DNA of 24,360 nt from a virus: positions 1-24,360 of IMG/VR virus record IMGVR_UViG_3300017731_000049; one strand, written 5' to 3'. Under the pieces are notes generated by a model. It was not told the DNA's origin. It saw only the letters and a list, made by a program, of their open reading frames with translations, and ran no database searches. Both the position numbers and the translations under genes were made by a program. This document shows, in pieces, positions 7,940-21,627 of this stretch (within the stretch, counting starts at the first letter, position 1; the number at the start of each line of letters is the position of its first letter).

Positions 7940-8812
7940 ATGCCGACTTATGCACAATTTACAGAGTTAGTTAGAGATTGGTCTAATAAAGATTCTTCTG
8001 TATTAAAGGACACTAGGATTCAAGATTGCTTAAGGTATGCTGCCGATAAGTGTTATAGGAATCTTAGAGTAGCGGCATTAGAAAATACTATTACATATAA
8101 CTCTACAGCTTTAAATGCAGCTACTACAACTGGTACTAATTATTTACCAAGTCAAACAGATTTAACTTTACCAAGTGATTTAATAGAGTTTATACAAATA
8201 AGAGAAATAGATGTTAATAATAGAACGTGTAGAGTATTTAATGAAAAGACGGATCTAAGAACATTTAATGATTGGTCAGCACTTAAAACAAGTTACATAG
8301 GTTATTTTTCAAGACAAGGTAATACATTATTATTAGCACCTGGATTTGGTCAAGCAAATAGTTTAAGTACCGCAGATAAAATAGAATTACATTATTATAG
8401 AAGGTTACCTGCACTGAATGCAGTGTACGATGTAACACCAGCTAACTATGCGGCAGAATTTTTAACACAAGATAATACAGCTGCTGTAAGTCTTTTCTTT
8501 GTTAATAATAATACTAATATAGCTTATGCTACACAATCAGAAGCAACAGCTGCAGATACTGGAGGTGTAGGAACAAACAATGCTAAGTACAAAGGTAATG
8601 AAGCCGCTAACTGGTTACGTGATGAGAATGAAAGAGTATTATTAATGGGTGCACTTTCAGAAGTATTTTATTATTTGCAAGATGATGATCAGGGTGTTAA
8701 GTATAAAAAATTATTTGATCAAGAAGTATTTGAATTAAATGATGAGGATACTAAACGTAATGCAGCAGGAGGAAATGTGCAAGTAAACTTTAATGGAAGA
8801 GGGTTAATCTAA
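7940..8812 (+). CDS. Head-tail adaptor protein, SU10-adaptor/tail-tubular-A-like
   Basis: This 290-residue protein has the pattern of phage head-to-tail adaptor proteins, which form a ring beneath the portal. The N-terminus is helical (YAQFTELVRDWSNKDS, RIQDCLRYAADKCYRNLRV). It is followed by LTLPSDLIEFIQIREI, a beta-domain ending in KIELHYYRRLPAL, and a helical C-terminus (EAANWLRDENERVLLMGAL, FDQEVFELNDED). The PSDLIEF segment before a variable beta region and the late helices fit this group as I recall it. GGGAG precedes the start. The stop overlaps the following fibre start as TAATG. Its usual partner, the nozzle, is encoded about 12.8 kb downstream here. Confidence in adaptor role is good, exact family moderate. 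Confidence 0.78.
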   Translation: MPTYAQFTELVRDWSNKDSSVLKDTRIQDCLRYAADKCYRNLRVAALENTITYNSTALNAATTTGTNYLPSQTDLTLPSDLIEFIQIREIDVNNRTCRVFNEKTDLRTFNDWSALKTSYIGYFSRQGNTLLLAPGFGQANSLSTADKIELHYYRRLPALNAVYDVTPANYAAEFLTQDNTAAVSLFFVNNNTNIAYATQSEATAADTGGVGTNNAKYKGNEAANWLRDENERVLLMGALSEVFYYLQDDDQGVKYKKLFDQEVFELNDEDTKRNAAGGNVQVNFNGRGLI

Positions 8813-11800
8813 TGACAACACCAGCAGCACCAGATACAGTTAATTCAGTTGGAGCAACTGATGATGCCTCTAAAGGAGGATTGTTTAATAGTTTAAATAA
8901 TACAACTCTTAATACACTTGAACAAGCAATAGCAACTAGAGCTACTTCTGCAGCAACCTCAGCTACTGATGCACTTGCATCTAAAAATGCTGCTGAGACA
9001 GCTAAGACAGCTTCTGAAACAGCACAAGCCGCTAGTGAAACTGCAAGGACTCAATCTCAAACTGCACAAGCTGCCAGTGAAACTGCACGTGATGCTAGTG
9101 TTGTAGCTAAGACAGCTTCGGAAACAGCTCGTGATGCAAGTGTTGTAGCAAAAACTGCATCTGAAAGTGCAAGAGATACAGCAGTTACTAATGCTACAAC
9201 AGCAACTACAAAAGCTGGAGAAGCTTTAACAAGCGCAAATAATGCGTCTACTTCAGCAGGCAATGCAAGTACTTCAGCAAGTAATGCAAGTACTTCAGAA
9301 ACTAATGCAGGTAATAGTGCAACTGCAGCAGCTAGTTCAGCAACAGCAGCAGCAGCTAGCTATGATGCATTTGATGATAGATATTTAGGAAATAAAACTA
9401 GCGATCCTACTGTTGATAACGATGGTAATGCATTATTAACAGGTGCTTTGTATTTTAAAACTACAGATAATATACTTAGAGTTTATACTGGATCAGCTTG
9501 GGTAACAGTTAAACCAACTACAACAGAGCAAGGACACATTAATACTGTTTCAGGTATACAAGCTAATGTTACAACAGTAGCAGGAATAGATAGTGATGTT
9601 ACAGATGTAGCAGGAATTAGTTCAGCTGTATCAGCAGTAAATAGTAATTCAACTAACATTAATGCAGTCAATAGTAATTCAACTAATATAAACGCAGTAA
9701 ATAGTAATTCAAGTAACATCAATACGGTAGCAAGTGCTAATACTAATATAACAAGTGTAGCTACTAATATAGCTAACGTAAATACAGTTGCAGGAATATT
9801 TGAAGGTACAGCTACATATACAGTTACAGTAGTTAATAGTGGTGGTAATAAATTTGCTATTAATACAGGAGCAGGTTCTGCAACAGCTCCAGCCCTTACA
9901 CTTGTAAAAGGTTTTACTTATACTTTTGATGTCAGTGATAATACTAACAGTGGACACCCACTTGCATTTAAAGATGCATCAGGTAACGCTTATACTACAG
10001 GAGTAACTGTAACTGGAACAGCTGGTCAAGCAGGTGCTAAAGTAGTCTTTGCAGTGCCAGCTACAGGAACACAACCAGCTAGATATTATTGTACTGCTCA
10101 TGGTAATGCTATGGGTAATACTGTTACTACTGAAGACAATGACATTGCAGAAGTATTAGCTATTTCAAATGAAATTACAACAGTATCTGGTATAGCAGGT
10201 AATGTAACAACTGTTGCAGGTATAAGTGCTAATACAACTACTGTAGCTGGTATAGCAGCTAATGTAACTACAGTAGCTGGAATACATGCTAATGTTACTA
10301 CAGTTGCTAGTAATAATACAAACATTAATACAGTCGCAAATATAAATGCTAATGTAACTACAGTTGCGGGTATACATGCTAACGTAACTGTAGTAGCAAA
10401 TATGAGTTCTAATGTAAATACAGTTGCAGGAATAGCTAGTAATATAACTACAGTTGCAGGTATGAATAGTAATATTACAAGTGTTGTAAATAATGCTAGT
10501 AATATTAATACAGTAGCTGGAATAAGTTCTAACGTAACTACAGTTGCAGGAGACACTACAGAAATTAATGCAGTTGCAGGTAATGCTACTAATATTAATA
10601 CAGTGGCTGGTAACAATTCTAACATTAATACAGTAGCTGGTATAAGTTCTAATGTTACTACTGTAGCAGGAATAAGTTCTAACATAACCTCAGTAGTTAA
10701 TAATAGTAGTAATATTAATACAGTTGCTACAAATATAACTAATGTAAATGCTTTTGCTAATACTTATTTTATAGGAAGCTCAGCACCTTCAGGTGGCACA
10801 ATAGGTAGTGGTGATTTATGGTATGATACTAGTTCATCACAAATGAAAGTATACAATGGTTCTGCTTGGGTAACATTTATATCAACTTATAATACAGGTA
10901 ATCTAACAGAAGGATCTAACTTATATTATACAAATGCAAGAGCTGATGCTAGAATTACAAATGCTTTTGGTAATGCTGTAAGTTTAGGTGATAACTTAAC
11001 TGTTGCTGGTGAACTTAGAGGTCCAGCTACATTTGTTATTGATCCAGCAGTAGTAGGTAATAATACAGGAACTGTTCAAGTAAAAGGAAACTTACAGGTA
11101 GATGGTACTACAACCACAGTAAACTCTACAACAGTAGATGTTACTGATAAGAATATTACAGTTGCAAAAAATTCTAACAATGCAGCAGCTGCAAATGGTG
11201 GTGGTCTTACAGTTGATTGTGGAAGTGATACAGATGCAACACTTACTTATACAAATTCAGATGATTCATGGAATGTAAATAAAACTTTTAATGCAACAAT
11301 AGGAACAGCAGCACAAGCTAATATTACAAGTGTTGGTACACTAACTGGATTAACTATTGATGGTGATGCAACTTTTACTGGTGCTAACTATAATGTAGTA
11401 TGGGATAAATCAGACAATGCTTTAGAGTTTGGTGATAATGCTAAAGCTAAATTTGGTGCAGATGGTGATTTAGAAATATACCATGATAGCAGTAATTCTT
11501 ACATAGCTAATAGTACAGGTCATTTATATATTGATGTTGGTGCAAATAATAAAGACATTATTTTTAAAGGAACTGATGGTGGTGTAGATAAAGAAGCTGG
11601 TCGTTTTGATATGTCTTCAAGTGGTAAACTTAAATTAAATGAAGGATTTGAAGTTGCTTCAAATGGTAATGTTACTCTTAAAGCTGGTGTTGATATAGTT
11701 TTTGAAGGAGATACCGATAATTCTAATGAAACAACTTTATATGTTGTTGACCCAACAGCCGACAGAACAATTTTATTACCAAATGCAACTGGAACTGTAA

Positions 11801-11970
11801 TAACTACAGGTAACTCTGATACACCAACAACTACAACATCTTCTGGAGATGCAGACTTTGTTCTTGTAGATGATGGTGGTACAATGAAAAAGATTACCCC
11901 TGCTAATTTAGGCGTAGTTTCTGGTGCAGCAACACAAGGATTTGCAGTAGCAATGGCAATAGCATTATAG
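8812..11970 (+). CDS. Long repetitive tail fibre with cupredoxin-like insert
   Basis: This 1052-residue Thr/Asn/Ala-rich protein is a modular tail fibre. In order: an N-terminal docking segment (residues 1-45, GGLFNSLNNTTLNTLEQAIA); an Ala/Ser/Thr-rich coiled coil with two 14-residue repeats (about 88-115); a short LYFKTTDNILRVYTGSAWVTV box (about 206-227); nine decapeptide units (242-331); a cupredoxin-like domain (332-453); twenty more decapeptide units (454-653); a second box with DLWYDTSSSQMKVYNGSAWV; a YYTNARADARIT segment; then beta-rich modules including EFGDNAKAKFGADGDLEIYH. There is no S74 chaperone at the end. It starts by TAATG overlap with the adaptor gene. It probably forms a trimeric fibre for host contact; the trimer and receptor are inferred. 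Confidence 0.85.
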   Translation: MTTPAAPDTVNSVGATDDASKGGLFNSLNNTTLNTLEQAIATRATSAATSATDALASKNAAETAKTASETAQAASETARTQSQTAQAASETARDASVVAKTASETARDASVVAKTASESARDTAVTNATTATTKAGEALTSANNASTSAGNASTSASNASTSETNAGNSATAAASSATAAAASYDAFDDRYLGNKTSDPTVDNDGNALLTGALYFKTTDNILRVYTGSAWVTVKPTTTEQGHINTVSGIQANVTTVAGIDSDVTDVAGISSAVSAVNSNSTNINAVNSNSTNINAVNSNSSNINTVASANTNITSVATNIANVNTVAGIFEGTATYTVTVVNSGGNKFAINTGAGSATAPALTLVKGFTYTFDVSDNTNSGHPLAFKDASGNAYTTGVTVTGTAGQAGAKVVFAVPATGTQPARYYCTAHGNAMGNTVTTEDNDIAEVLAISNEITTVSGIAGNVTTVAGISANTTTVAGIAANVTTVAGIHANVTTVASNNTNINTVANINANVTTVAGIHANVTVVANMSSNVNTVAGIASNITTVAGMNSNITSVVNNASNINTVAGISSNVTTVAGDTTEINAVAGNATNINTVAGNNSNINTVAGISSNVTTVAGISSNITSVVNNSSNINTVATNITNVNAFANTYFIGSSAPSGGTIGSGDLWYDTSSSQMKVYNGSAWVTFISTYNTGNLTEGSNLYYTNARADARITNAFGNAVSLGDNLTVAGELRGPATFVIDPAVVGNNTGTVQVKGNLQVDGTTTTVNSTTVDVTDKNITVAKNSNNAAAANGGGLTVDCGSDTDATLTYTNSDDSWNVNKTFNATIGTAAQANITSVGTLTGLTIDGDATFTGANYNVVWDKSDNALEFGDNAKAKFGADGDLEIYHDSSNSYIANSTGHLYIDVGANNKDIIFKGTDGGVDKEAGRFDMSSSGKLKLNEGFEVASNGNVTLKAGVDIVFEGDTDNSNETTLYVVDPTADRTILLPNATGTVITTGNSDTPTTTTSSGDADFVLVDDGGTMKKITPANLGVVSGAATQGFAVAMAIAL
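9073..9156 (+). repeat. Two tandem 42-base repeats coding a 14-residue coiled-coil unit
   Basis: Two units encode ASETARDASVVAKT with identical residues but several different codons, followed by a degraded third unit. The 14-residue length equals two heptads, consistent with an extended coiled coil in the fibre stem. The differing codons show that the protein repeat is under selection rather than being a recent duplication. Confidence 0.8.
9535..9804 (+). repeat. Nine 30-base units, decapeptide block 1 of the fibre
   Basis: Nine in-frame 30-base units encode decapeptides of the form N-[IV]-x-[TA]-V-x-x-x-x-x, such as NVTTVAGIDS and NINAVNSNST. The DNA varies at third positions while Asn, Val and the small residues are kept. 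The block ends where the cupredoxin-like domain begins. Confidence 0.9.
9805..10170 (+). other. Cupredoxin-like domain coding segment within the fibre
   Basis: Residues 332-453 of the fibre interrupt the repeat array. A beta-rich segment with YTFDVSDNTNSGHPLAFKD is followed by YYCTAHGNAMGN. Possible type 1 copper ligands are His382, Cys427, His430 and Met434, in the order and spacing (Cys-x2-His-x3-Met) seen in plastocyanin-like and amicyanin-like folds. From memory, similar segments with a C-x2-H then Met pattern occur in other marine phage structural proteins. Copper binding is inferred, not shown. Confidence 0.6.
10171..10770 (+). repeat. Twenty 30-base units, decapeptide block 2 of the fibre
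   Basis: Exactly twenty uninterrupted 30-base units encode decapeptides such as NVTTVAGIHA, NINTVAGISS and NITSVVNNSS. The strongest positions are Asn1, Ile/Val2, Thr4 and Val5. No unit is lost or shifted in frame. Variable DNA with constant protein pattern argues for long-standing selection on a fibre shaft. Confidence 0.93.
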
Positions 11971-12324: not shown

Positions 12325-13896
12325 ATGCCATACGTAGGAAATCCCTTAGCAACTGCATTTTCAGGTAGATTAAAACAAGATCTTACAGGAGGCAGTGGCA
12401 CAAGCTTTACTTTAAGTCATGCAGTATCAAGTCCTAATGATTTATCTATTTATATAAACCACATACGACAAGAACCAACTACTGCTTATACAGTTAACGG
12501 AACTGCTTTGACAATGACAGGTAGTGTTGCAGGTACAGATGACTTCTATATTATATATGATGAGTTAGCTACACAAAGTATTTCACATCCAGCTAATCAG
12601 GCTTTGACTGCTACAGCAGGTACATTCACTAGTGGGCTAGTAGGAACTACGGCTACGTTTAGTGGTGCTGTATCAGGAACTACTGGTACTTTTAGTAGTG
12701 CATTTACATCTCCAGGAATAGATGACAATGCTAATGCTACAGCTATTACGATTGATAGTAATGAAAATGTTGGTTTAGGAACTACAAGTCCAAATGTTAT
12801 TGCTTCTGGTAACACTCATTTAGATATTCGTTCTGGCACATATAGTTTCTTAGAAGTAGGAACTACTGGAACAACTACAACAAGTGATGTTGGCTATTTA
12901 GAATTTATGAATGGCAATAATAATAGGTTAGCAACTATTGCTGGTGGTGCTGATGGTGCTAACAATGATGGCTATATGAGATTTGCTACTTTAAAGGGTG
13001 GTAGTTTTACAGAGCAAATGCGAATTAACCATGATGGAAATGTTGGTATAGGAACTACAACACCAAGAAATAATTTAGACTTTGGAGTAACATCTAATAA
13101 TGACCATGTAATAGCTTTAAGAGATAACAATACATCAAGAACCATATTAGGATTATCTAATGGCTATGGTGTAAGAGTTGCTGCACCACATGATGGCACA
13201 TCAACAGAAACTATATTTGAAGTTGGTGAAATTGCAGGGGATGGAACTACATACCAAAATGCTAAGTTTAATATTTATTATAATGGTCAGTTTAGACATA
13301 CTGCTCAACTTAATAGTCTTGCTGGTTATATTGTAAATGAGCATGGTTCTTCACCTTATGGAATATATATTCAGTTTGATTCAGCATCACCAAATAATAC
13401 TGATAATTATTTTTTATCTGGACTTGATAGTTCAGCAACAAGAATAAAACTTTATTCTAGTGGAACAGTTAAAAACTCAACTGGAACTTATACATCATTT
13501 TCAGATGAAAGATTAAAGTCAGATATTGTAGATGCAAAATCACAATGGGAAGATATAAAGGCTTTAAACTTTAAGAACTTTATAAAGTTTGATAATCCAG
13601 ATTTTAAACAGCTTGGTTTAATTGCACAAGATGTAGAAAAAGTAAGTCCTAATTTAGTCTTTGAAACACCTCCAGAACCAGAAGAAATAAAACATAGTTC
13701 TGTATTTGGTACTTTATATAAAGATGGTGATGAACTTCCAGAAGGTAAAAAGATTGGTGATGTTAAAGAAGTAAAATCAAAAGTAAAAAATGTTAAAGAC
13801 AGTATTCTTTATATGAAATCAGTTAAAGCACTTCAAGAAGCAATGGAACGAATAGAAATATTAGAAGCTAAAGTAAAAGTATTGGAGAATAAATAA
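12325..13896 (+). CDS. Tail fibre/spike with C-terminal S74 endosialidase chaperone
   Basis: This 523-residue fibre has an N-terminal docking domain (about 1-95, beginning MPYVGNPLATAF and including ISIYINH-type strands). Repeated short beta modules follow (TGTFSSAFTSPGI, NVGLGTTSPN, and later NVGIGTTTPRNNLDF near residue 240). The end is an S74 intramolecular chaperone (from about 390): FSDERLKSD with the likely cleavage Ser at 393, LGLIAQDVEKVSP at about 430, and a coiled-coil tail (ALQEAMERIEILEAKVKVLE). In this family the chaperone trimerises the fibre and then cuts itself off before the Ser. AGGAGG lies before the start. The stop overlaps the next start as TAATG. It is the best receptor-binding candidate in the array. 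Confidence 0.88.
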   Translation: MPYVGNPLATAFSGRLKQDLTGGSGTSFTLSHAVSSPNDLSIYINHIRQEPTTAYTVNGTALTMTGSVAGTDDFYIIYDELATQSISHPANQALTATAGTFTSGLVGTTATFSGAVSGTTGTFSSAFTSPGIDDNANATAITIDSNENVGLGTTSPNVIASGNTHLDIRSGTYSFLEVGTTGTTTTSDVGYLEFMNGNNNRLATIAGGADGANNDGYMRFATLKGGSFTEQMRINHDGNVGIGTTTPRNNLDFGVTSNNDHVIALRDNNTSRTILGLSNGYGVRVAAPHDGTSTETIFEVGEIAGDGTTYQNAKFNIYYNGQFRHTAQLNSLAGYIVNEHGSSPYGIYIQFDSASPNNTDNYFLSGLDSSATRIKLYSSGTVKNSTGTYTSFSDERLKSDIVDAKSQWEDIKALNFKNFIKFDNPDFKQLGLIAQDVEKVSPNLVFETPPEPEEIKHSSVFGTLYKDGDELPEGKKIGDVKEVKSKVKNVKDSILYMKSVKALQEAMERIEILEAKVKVLENK

Positions 13897-19854: not shown

Positions 19855-21627
19855 ATGCTACATAATACAGAATTCCTAGGGCCCGAAACATCTATATCAC
19901 AAGAAATAGATATGATGAAGTACCGGCAAAAAGATGAAAGCTTTGATGAGAAGATTAAAAGAATAGCTAATACATTATCTGATAATGAAGATCATAGATA
20001 TAAGTTAGAAGGTATACTAGGCAATATGAGATTTCTACCAGCAGGTAGAGTACAAGCTGCAATAGGATCTAATAGAATTACAACTGCATACAACTGTTTT
20101 GTATCAGGTATAATAGACGATAACATGAATAGCATAATGGAGAAAGCCAGTGAAGCTGCTGAAACAATGCGTAGAGGCGGTGGGATTGGTTATGACTTTA
20201 GCCGCATCAGACCAAGAGGCGATAAAATTAAATCACTCGATAGCCAGGCTAGCGGTCCTGTTTCCTTCATGGGTATCTTTGATGCTGTGTGTCAAACCAT
20301 CGCTAGCTCAGGACACAGACGTGGGGCGCAGATGGGTGTCCTTAGGGTCGACCATCCGGATATTAAAGAGTTCATTGCTGCTAAACGTAATTCTGATAAG
20401 CTCACTGGTTTTAATATTAGTGTTGGTATAACTGATAAATTTATGGAGGCATTGACTAATGATTTGGATAGCAGCTTTACGTTGGAATTCGAAGGAAAGC
20501 CGTACGGGACAATATGCGCAAAAGACCTTTGGGATGAAATCATGGATAGCACTTGGGACTGGGCTGAGCCTGGCGTATTATTTATTGATCGCATAGAAGA
20601 AATGAATAACCTTTATTACTGTGAAGAAATATTTGCTACAAATCCGTGTGGTGAGCAACCCCTACCACCATATGGCGCATGCTTACTTGGCTCATTTAAT
20701 CTTACAAAGTATTTAGATGAAGAACAAATTGTAGGTGGTGATAAAGCACAATCACATTTTGAGTTTGATTTTAAAAAATTCAAAGCAGATATATATCAAG
20801 TAGTAAGAGCAATGGATAATGTTATTGATAGAACTATATATCAATTAAAAGAACAAGCTGACGAAGCTAAGAACAAAAGAAGAATGGGATTAGGTTTAAC
20901 AGGGCTAGCTAATGCTGGTGAACTATTAGGTTTACCGTATGCATCAGAAGAATTTATGACGTGGTCTGAAAAAATATTTGCATGCTTAAGAGATACTACA
21001 TATAAAGCTTCAGCCTTATTAGCAAAAGAGAAAGGTGCATTCCCGTTATATAGAGAAGCATATTTAAAATCTAATTTTGTTAGAGGCTTACCTTCTTCAG
21101 TTAAAAAATTAATAAGAGAACATGGAATTCGTAACAGTCACTTAACTTCAATAGCACCAACAGGTACTATTAGTTTAGTTGCTGACAATGTTAGTGGAGG
21201 AATTGAACCTGTATTTAGTCATTATTATGATAGAACTATCCAAACTTTTGAAGGGCCTAAGACCGAGAGAGTAAAAGATTACGCTTACAATAAAGGAGTT
21301 GAAGGACGATCAGCTAACGATATAAATGTTAATGAACACTTAGCTGTATTATTGCTTGCACAAAACTACATAGATAGTGCGTGCTCAAAAACCTGTAACG
21401 TAGGTGATGATATTACGTATGAAGATTTCAAACAAGTTTATGTTGATGCCTGGAAAGGCGGGGCGAAAGGATGTACCACATTTAGACTTAGTGGTAAACG
21501 ATTCGGCGTACTGCAAACCGTGGAAGAAAAAGAGAAGAACACAAATGCGATTGAGACAGTTAAGGAAGAGGAACAAGTTGAAGCTTGTTTTATAGATCCT
21601 CAAACTGGTCAAAAGGAATGTGCTTAA
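19855..21627 (+). CDS. nrdJ: Class II (B12-dependent) ribonucleotide reductase
   Basis: This 590-residue enzyme makes deoxyribonucleotides from ribonucleotides using an adenosylcobalamin radical. Key residues are visible: Cys81 in TAYNCFVSG, Cys265 in NPCGEQPL with Asn263 and Glu267 (thiyl radical site), and Cys276 eleven residues on; this spacing matches the redox pair and radical Cys of the Thermotoga NrdJ structure. Also present are GGGIGYDFSRIRPRG (108-122), APTGTIS (434-440), SKTCN, GCTTFR and a C-terminal Cys pair (578 and 589) suited to re-reducing the active site. It has no N-terminal ATP-cone. It sits between a membrane cluster and the nozzle gene, not in a replication module. A central block, roughly 20161-20580, is richer in GC than its flanks. 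The product is probably functional. Confidence 0.95.
   Translation: MLHNTEFLGPETSISQEIDMMKYRQKDESFDEKIKRIANTLSDNEDHRYKLEGILGNMRFLPAGRVQAAIGSNRITTAYNCFVSGIIDDNMNSIMEKASEAAETMRRGGGIGYDFSRIRPRGDKIKSLDSQASGPVSFMGIFDAVCQTIASSGHRRGAQMGVLRVDHPDIKEFIAAKRNSDKLTGFNISVGITDKFMEALTNDLDSSFTLEFEGKPYGTICAKDLWDEIMDSTWDWAEPGVLFIDRIEEMNNLYYCEEIFATNPCGEQPLPPYGACLLGSFNLTKYLDEEQIVGGDKAQSHFEFDFKKFKADIYQVVRAMDNVIDRTIYQLKEQADEAKNKRRMGLGLTGLANAGELLGLPYASEEFMTWSEKIFACLRDTTYKASALLAKEKGAFPLYREAYLKSNFVRGLPSSVKKLIREHGIRNSHLTSIAPTGTISLVADNVSGGIEPVFSHYYDRTIQTFEGPKTERVKDYAYNKGVEGRSANDINVNEHLAVLLLAQNYIDSACSKTCNVGDDITYEDFKQVYVDAWKGGAKGCTTFRLSGKRFGVLQTVEEKEKNTNAIETVKEEEQVEACFIDPQTGQKECA

Follow-up and report, generated by a model that had tools for sequence, protein, structure and literature searches.

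The window, which is the entire virus record of 24,360 bases, contains a long tail fibre gene whose N-terminal part matches phrog_38058 (tail fiber) with an E-value of 8.6e-39 in PHROGs profile comparison. The gene is preceded by a virion structural gene (7940-8812) and followed by more fibre genes; the portal, scaffold and major head genes all lie upstream, and a ribonucleotide reductase gene lies farther downstream. The latter encodes the large subunit (19855-21627) and is placed within the structural gene block, ahead of a virion structural gene. One of the downstream fibre genes (12325-13896) carries a C-terminal SDERLKSDIVDAKS, which we take to resemble the S74-type self-cleaving chaperone of tail spikes. 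The features considered here are the following:

8812-11970, plus strand: tail fibre gene, an open reading frame of 1052 amino acids assigned to PHROGs tail fibre families
9535-9804, plus strand: first decapeptide array, 9 units in one phase, residues 242-331
9805-10140, plus strand: predicted cupredoxin-fold domain, about residues 332-443, from the AlphaFold2 model and structural matches
9955-9957, plus strand: codon of His382, predicted first copper ligand, followed by Pro383; aligns with a plastocyanin ligand His
10090-10092, plus strand: codon of Cys427, predicted thiolate ligand; aligns with the plastocyanin ligand Cys
10099-10101, plus strand: codon of His430, predicted second His ligand; aligns with a plastocyanin ligand His
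10111-10113, plus strand: codon of Met434, predicted axial ligand, in Cys-x2-His-x3-Met spacing
10141-10170, plus strand: degenerate decapeptide unit DIAEVLAISN, residues 444-453, preceding the second array
10171-10770, plus strand: second decapeptide array, 20 units in one phase, residues 454-653

A reading of the letters alone had described a fibre whose decapeptide array is divided into 9 and 20 units by a single domain, here about 112-120 residues long. Those unit counts are confirmed, and the interval assigned to the feature, 9535-10770, coincides exactly with the outer ends of the two arrays. DNA identity at a lag of 30 bases is 0.59 in the first array (codon-shuffle mean 0.36, sd 0.03) and 0.66 in the second (mean 0.40, sd 0.02), and since these values stand well above the codon shuffles, both arrays are far beyond chance. 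The same reading had the 30-base register preserved on both sides of the domain, and this holds within each array; the arrays themselves are offset from each other by two residues. The phase is 2 (modulo 10) before the domain and 4 (modulo 10) after it, so the register is kept within each array and not across the domain, and a single register running through both arrays is ruled out. Homologues carry a segment resembling the degenerate unit in the corresponding position (alignment A3). When the domain was modelled together with its flanking repeats, the domain was retained and the arrays appeared as low-confidence helices (pLDDT about 45-60), and we therefore draw no conclusion on the fold of the shaft.

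What is the fold of the inserted domain? Residues 329-446 were modelled with AlphaFold2 from an alignment of the window domain and 48 relatives (A1, 49 sequences), giving a mean pLDDT of 94.6, a pTM of 0.88 and ten strand segments. The predicted model displays the Greek-key sandwich of about eight strands that defines the cupredoxin superfamily. Comparison by Foldseek and VIA-align 2 placed the N-terminal cupredoxin domain of the three-domain nitrite reductase of Hyphomicrobium (2dv6) at the top of the solved structures, with a Z-score of 9.8 over 106 residues at 2.9 A; two-domain laccases (Z about 8.2) and rusticyanin (2cal, Z 8.0) were other top matches. Foldseek E-values against the PDB are weak, the best being 2.4e-3. 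SO1698, a similar sandwich labelled as an aspartic peptidase, also matches the model at Z about 8, and for this reason the fold match by itself is no proof of a copper site. The structure prediction that the sequence-only reading had called for thus yielded the cupredoxin sandwich, with copper proteins as its best solved matches. We conclude that the fibre domain is predicted with high confidence to have a genuine cupredoxin fold of the plastocyanin/azurin type.

The translation of the reading frame has His382, Cys427, His430 and Met434 at exactly the positions first given for them. In the model His382 (model residue 54) stands directly ahead of the strand at 56-59, Cys427 ends the next-to-last strand (96-99), and His430 and Met434 (model residues 102 and 106) lie in and after the loop that follows the Cys strand. 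The model is metal-free, and the agreement of this placement with cupredoxins is one of strand positions only. An intradomain disulphide was considered and is ruled out, the domain having one Cys. The Cys-x2-His-x3-Met loop of the window is common to 152 copies of the family; in 45 copies, which include almost all of the bacterial and the majority of the cultured-phage ones, the spacing to Met is x2, as in amicyanin. The extra residue of the x3 copies is a nearly invariant Gly (Gly431). Among characterised Cys-x2-His proteins the spacing to Met is x2 in amicyanin and x4 in plastocyanin and pseudoazurin, and we know of no characterised blue copper protein with Cys-x2-His-x3-Met. Because the x3 loop falls between these known lengths, it may give rise to unusual spectra.

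Are the four residues conserved as a set? Among 159 distinct untruncated copies on viral contigs, 158 have His, Cys, His and Met, and one (L070) has Asn, Ser, Asn and Tyr. In the latter (6001-6327 of L070) the reading frame is intact with all four ligands replaced, which makes it a natural ligand-less control. With bacterial and cultured-phage copies added, and with copies taken singly, shared ancestry included, His/Cys/His is kept in 199 of 202 untruncated copies, with Met at the fourth position in 197 and Gln in two (L160 and L174), and the other three depart from this set; Gln in place of the axial Met is the known alternative of the stellacyanins. In 209 unfiltered copies, again counted singly with shared ancestry included, His430, Met434 and Cys427 rank third, fourth and fifth in conservation among about 116 columns, and His382 ranks eleventh. 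His, Cys and His are the sole invariant columns of the wide alignment A2; the rows of A2 were pre-filtered for the Cys-x2-His motif, and the unfiltered counts are preferred for that reason. Similarly, some scans of the sequence collections used patterns that contain ligand residues. The pattern of the genome scan contained none, and there His/Cys/His was kept in 28 of 30 untruncated copies. The Cys-x2-His loop is missing from four copies in L176, two in L168 and one each in L174 and L171, and likewise from the second domains of L182 and L184. Reading the degenerate and truncated copies by eye revealed none in which only one of Cys and the second His was kept. Some copies that have lost the remaining ligands still possess the first His, and a low-scoring bacterial copy (L174, 748-826) has Cys, His and Met and lacks the first His. 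The expectation that the ligands would be conserved together is therefore borne out by the 199 of 202 copies with His/Cys/His and Met or Gln, and by the joint loss of Cys and the second His from degenerate copies. This ordered and jointly conserved set of His, Cys, His and axial Met or Gln is what characterises a type 1 site.

The relation to plastocyanin becomes visible by sequence when distant relatives are included. The window domain and its closest relatives, compared by sequence with Pfam, NCBIfam and the PDB, returned nothing useful: no Pfam model scores above its cut-off on the window domain, and PF00127 gives weak matches in two of the 49 relatives, the best at E 0.0077. A profile of the 49 close relatives found mostly weak antibody matches in the PDB, which we take as chance matches between beta-sandwiches, and a CopC match in the Prochlorococcus protein L156 was set aside as overlapping better Ig-like matches. 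Relatives found in viral contigs, in marine bacterial genomes and in cultured phages were then added, and the broader profile was compared with 497 ORFs surrounding Pfam Copper-bind matches in cyanobacterial and other genomes. It picks out plastocyanin-family proteins with E-values down to 5e-16, and none of the reversed ORFs used as a control matched. Where the profile alignment is full-length, the ligands of bacterial plastocyanins line up with His, Cys, His and Met. Likewise, plastocyanins head the PDB matches of alignment A2; the E-values are weak (0.007-0.05), and all four ligands align. The ligands thus align with those of known type 1 proteins, with scores that are weak but consistent. 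One protein, L198, comes from the Prochlorococcus genome that also holds L156 and is matched by both Pfam Copper-bind (1.7e-6) and the phage profile (5e-16); it thereby links the phage domain to the plastocyanins.

The domain is widespread and is not the curiosity of one fibre. Relatives are encoded by at least 570 stretches of IMG/VR viral contigs, and the cultured phages that carry it infect Prochlorococcus, Synechococcus, Pelagibacter and Methylophilales. Tail fibres and gp7-like baseplate proteins contain it, and gp9-like connectors, whose N-terminus matches T4 gp9/10, carry it at their C-terminal end. The sequence-only reading had expected a copper site on a phage fibre to be unusual; the predicted site is not rare, since many tail and baseplate proteins of marine phages contain the domain. 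Decapeptide repeats flank it on both sides in 47 of 164 viral-contig ORFs, and 29 of the 164 contain two cupredoxin copies. Proteins of about 450 residues with two tandem copies, an architecture unlike that of the window fibre, are found at L027-L031, L034, L035, L038, L039, L041 and similar loci. Three related fibres (L235, L236 and L238) share 86-87% identity over a 172-residue C-terminal stretch and have repeats and no domain, from which it follows that the module is optional. These three fibres contain long arrays of a different decapeptide-like repeat (LGTSANVTAMGH). The bacterial copies examined belong to large proteins of surface type that also contain cadherin, Ig-like or calcium-binding repeats; some of the contigs within bacterial genome bins may themselves be viral. 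Finally, we note that a gene of Synechococcus phage S-SCSM2R (PQ898602.1; L181, 2240-2746) is annotated as PetE. Its product has no visible signal peptide, a virion-like N-terminus and a C-terminal domain of the fibre cupredoxin family, and a peptidase S8 family protein is encoded next to it. The product resembles a virion protein that was given the name plastocyanin, and other phage petE annotations may need re-checking.

What does the module do? In our view the fold and the ligand set are settled as far as computation goes, and we consider it probable that the fibre domain combines a cupredoxin fold with a functional copper-type metal site. That copper is actually bound in the virion also seems likely to us, as an extrapolation from these data. 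Type 1 copper sites are known mainly for electron transfer in enzymes and small carrier proteins. The role that we favour for the phage domain is that of a metal-binding adhesion module exposed at the surface: some copies have kept the fold after losing the ligands, yet nearly everywhere else selection has retained them. Judging from the ligand-less copies, the fold may not depend on the site, which in turn argues that the site has been retained for a separate function; a role in attachment, taken alone, is a tentative proposal. We envisage that the module, lying within the decapeptide shaft with its intact type 1-like set of His382, Cys427, His430 and Met434, would enter the virion with its site empty, assembly taking place in a host cytoplasm that has little free copper. 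After lysis copper, either Cu(I) or Cu(II), could occupy the site, which in its filled state could stiffen the domain or make a metal-mediated contact with the host surface. Most phage fibres are trimers; if this one is, three sites would be positioned at one height.

The main rival to this proposal is that the domain is a plain rigid spacer or joint, a stable fold recruited for stiffness whose ligand residues are retained for packing and bind no metal. The module is dispensable in fibres with similar ends (L235, L236 and L238), as spacers can be, and the shafts and baseplate proteins in which it is found are places where rigidity counts. The sequence signature of the family also persists in some ligand-less copies, as a spacer would allow, but the same persistence implies that the fold does not seem to need the ligand residues. 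Packing, moreover, would predict frequent single substitutions, whereas Cys and the second His are either present together or absent together, and the sole axial change in otherwise intact sites is from Met to Gln, a known copper ligand. We regard the spacer as unlikely. A second alternative is a site that binds a metal, but not copper in the type 1 manner; the metal might be zinc, or iron such as that bound by HxH motifs in T4 and alterophage fibres, and tail fibres of phages are documented to contain iron (PMC11705849). Apo-cupredoxins take up other metals in vitro. However, a cupredoxin fold with Cys, two His and Met has the ligand set of type 1 copper, a fourth residue that is Met or Gln argues for a soft metal, and the domain has no HxH motif; we hold another metal to be quite improbable. 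Four fitting residues could, in principle, have arisen by chance in an unrelated beta-sandwich such as an immunoglobulin-like fibre domain, as the antibody matches of the close-relative profile and the BFVD label of one relative (immunoglobulin-domain protein) might suggest. Against this, the wider profiles rank plastocyanins first and select them among the 497 ORFs, the structural matches are mostly cupredoxins, and the ligand columns are among the most conserved. Coincidence is already contradicted by the computation and is extremely improbable.

Marine phages that infect Prochlorococcus, Synechococcus, Pelagibacter and methylotrophs have the complete ligand set conserved in structural components. 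Were these sites to take up copper, virions would count among the copper-binding constituents of seawater, and attachment might be copper-dependent. We offer, as a speculation, that marine phage particles bind copper through a module of blue-copper type that recurs in their fibres and baseplates, and that this module would be loaded from seawater or the host surface and would help attachment or trigger an infection step. Such particles could conceivably represent the copper counterpart of the iron Trojan-horse hypothesis. The natural ligand-less copies and the module-free fibres are ready-made controls, and several PHROGs virion families gain a fold and a testable chemistry.

We rate the domain as a familiar copper fold in a new place, namely phage tail proteins. 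Our literature search for cupredoxins or type 1 copper in phage tails, virions or cyanophages, with most subscription journals and preprints outside its scope, returned no report. Cyanophages are known to carry plastocyanin genes as metabolic genes (PMC2984593). With plastocyanin (PF00127, Copper-bind) the window domain shares the fold class and the order and aligned positions of His...Cys-x2-His...Met; it differs in having His-Pro where plastocyanin has His-Asn and an x3 loop where plastocyanin has x4, and whereas plastocyanin is a small stand-alone protein, the window domain is an internal module of a 1052-residue virion fibre. The nitrite reductase N-terminal domains (2dv6, 6tfd and 6tfo, Z 9.0-9.8) and rusticyanin (8.0) are among the best structural matches of the model, but they are parts of redox enzymes or electron carriers and share 13-16% identity with the window domain. 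The window domain has no match in NCBIfam, which includes the amicyanin model TIGR02657; the sibling domain of S-SCSM2R matches that model over the Cys-x2-His-x2-Met loop, far below the cut-off (E 2.9e-4), and the amicyanin loop is one residue shorter than that of the window domain. Tail-fibre metal sites have a precedent, as the T4 fibre holds seven iron ions and six sites have been proposed in phage R22Y, an alterophage (PMC11705849). A hypothesis of metal-mediated attachment exists. The sites of T4 gp37 and R22Y are octahedral iron sites with HxH ligands in the fibre trimer, whereas that of the window is a predicted thiolate-containing cupredoxin site inside one domain, in which His382 and His430 are the only His residues. 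Among the closest known systems are also phrog_677, phrog_30742, phrog_32294 and phrog_693, which share the window domain both by sequence (E 1e-8 to 1e-17) and by fold. These families comprise the cyanophage gp9-like connector, fibres and baseplate wedge, and PHROGs does not describe them as cupredoxins. Their cultured-phage members mostly have the x2 loop, and the decapeptide setting is confined to part of the family; the ligands are retained in the gp9, gp7, Mosig, Baldr, Melnitz and Bellamy proteins.
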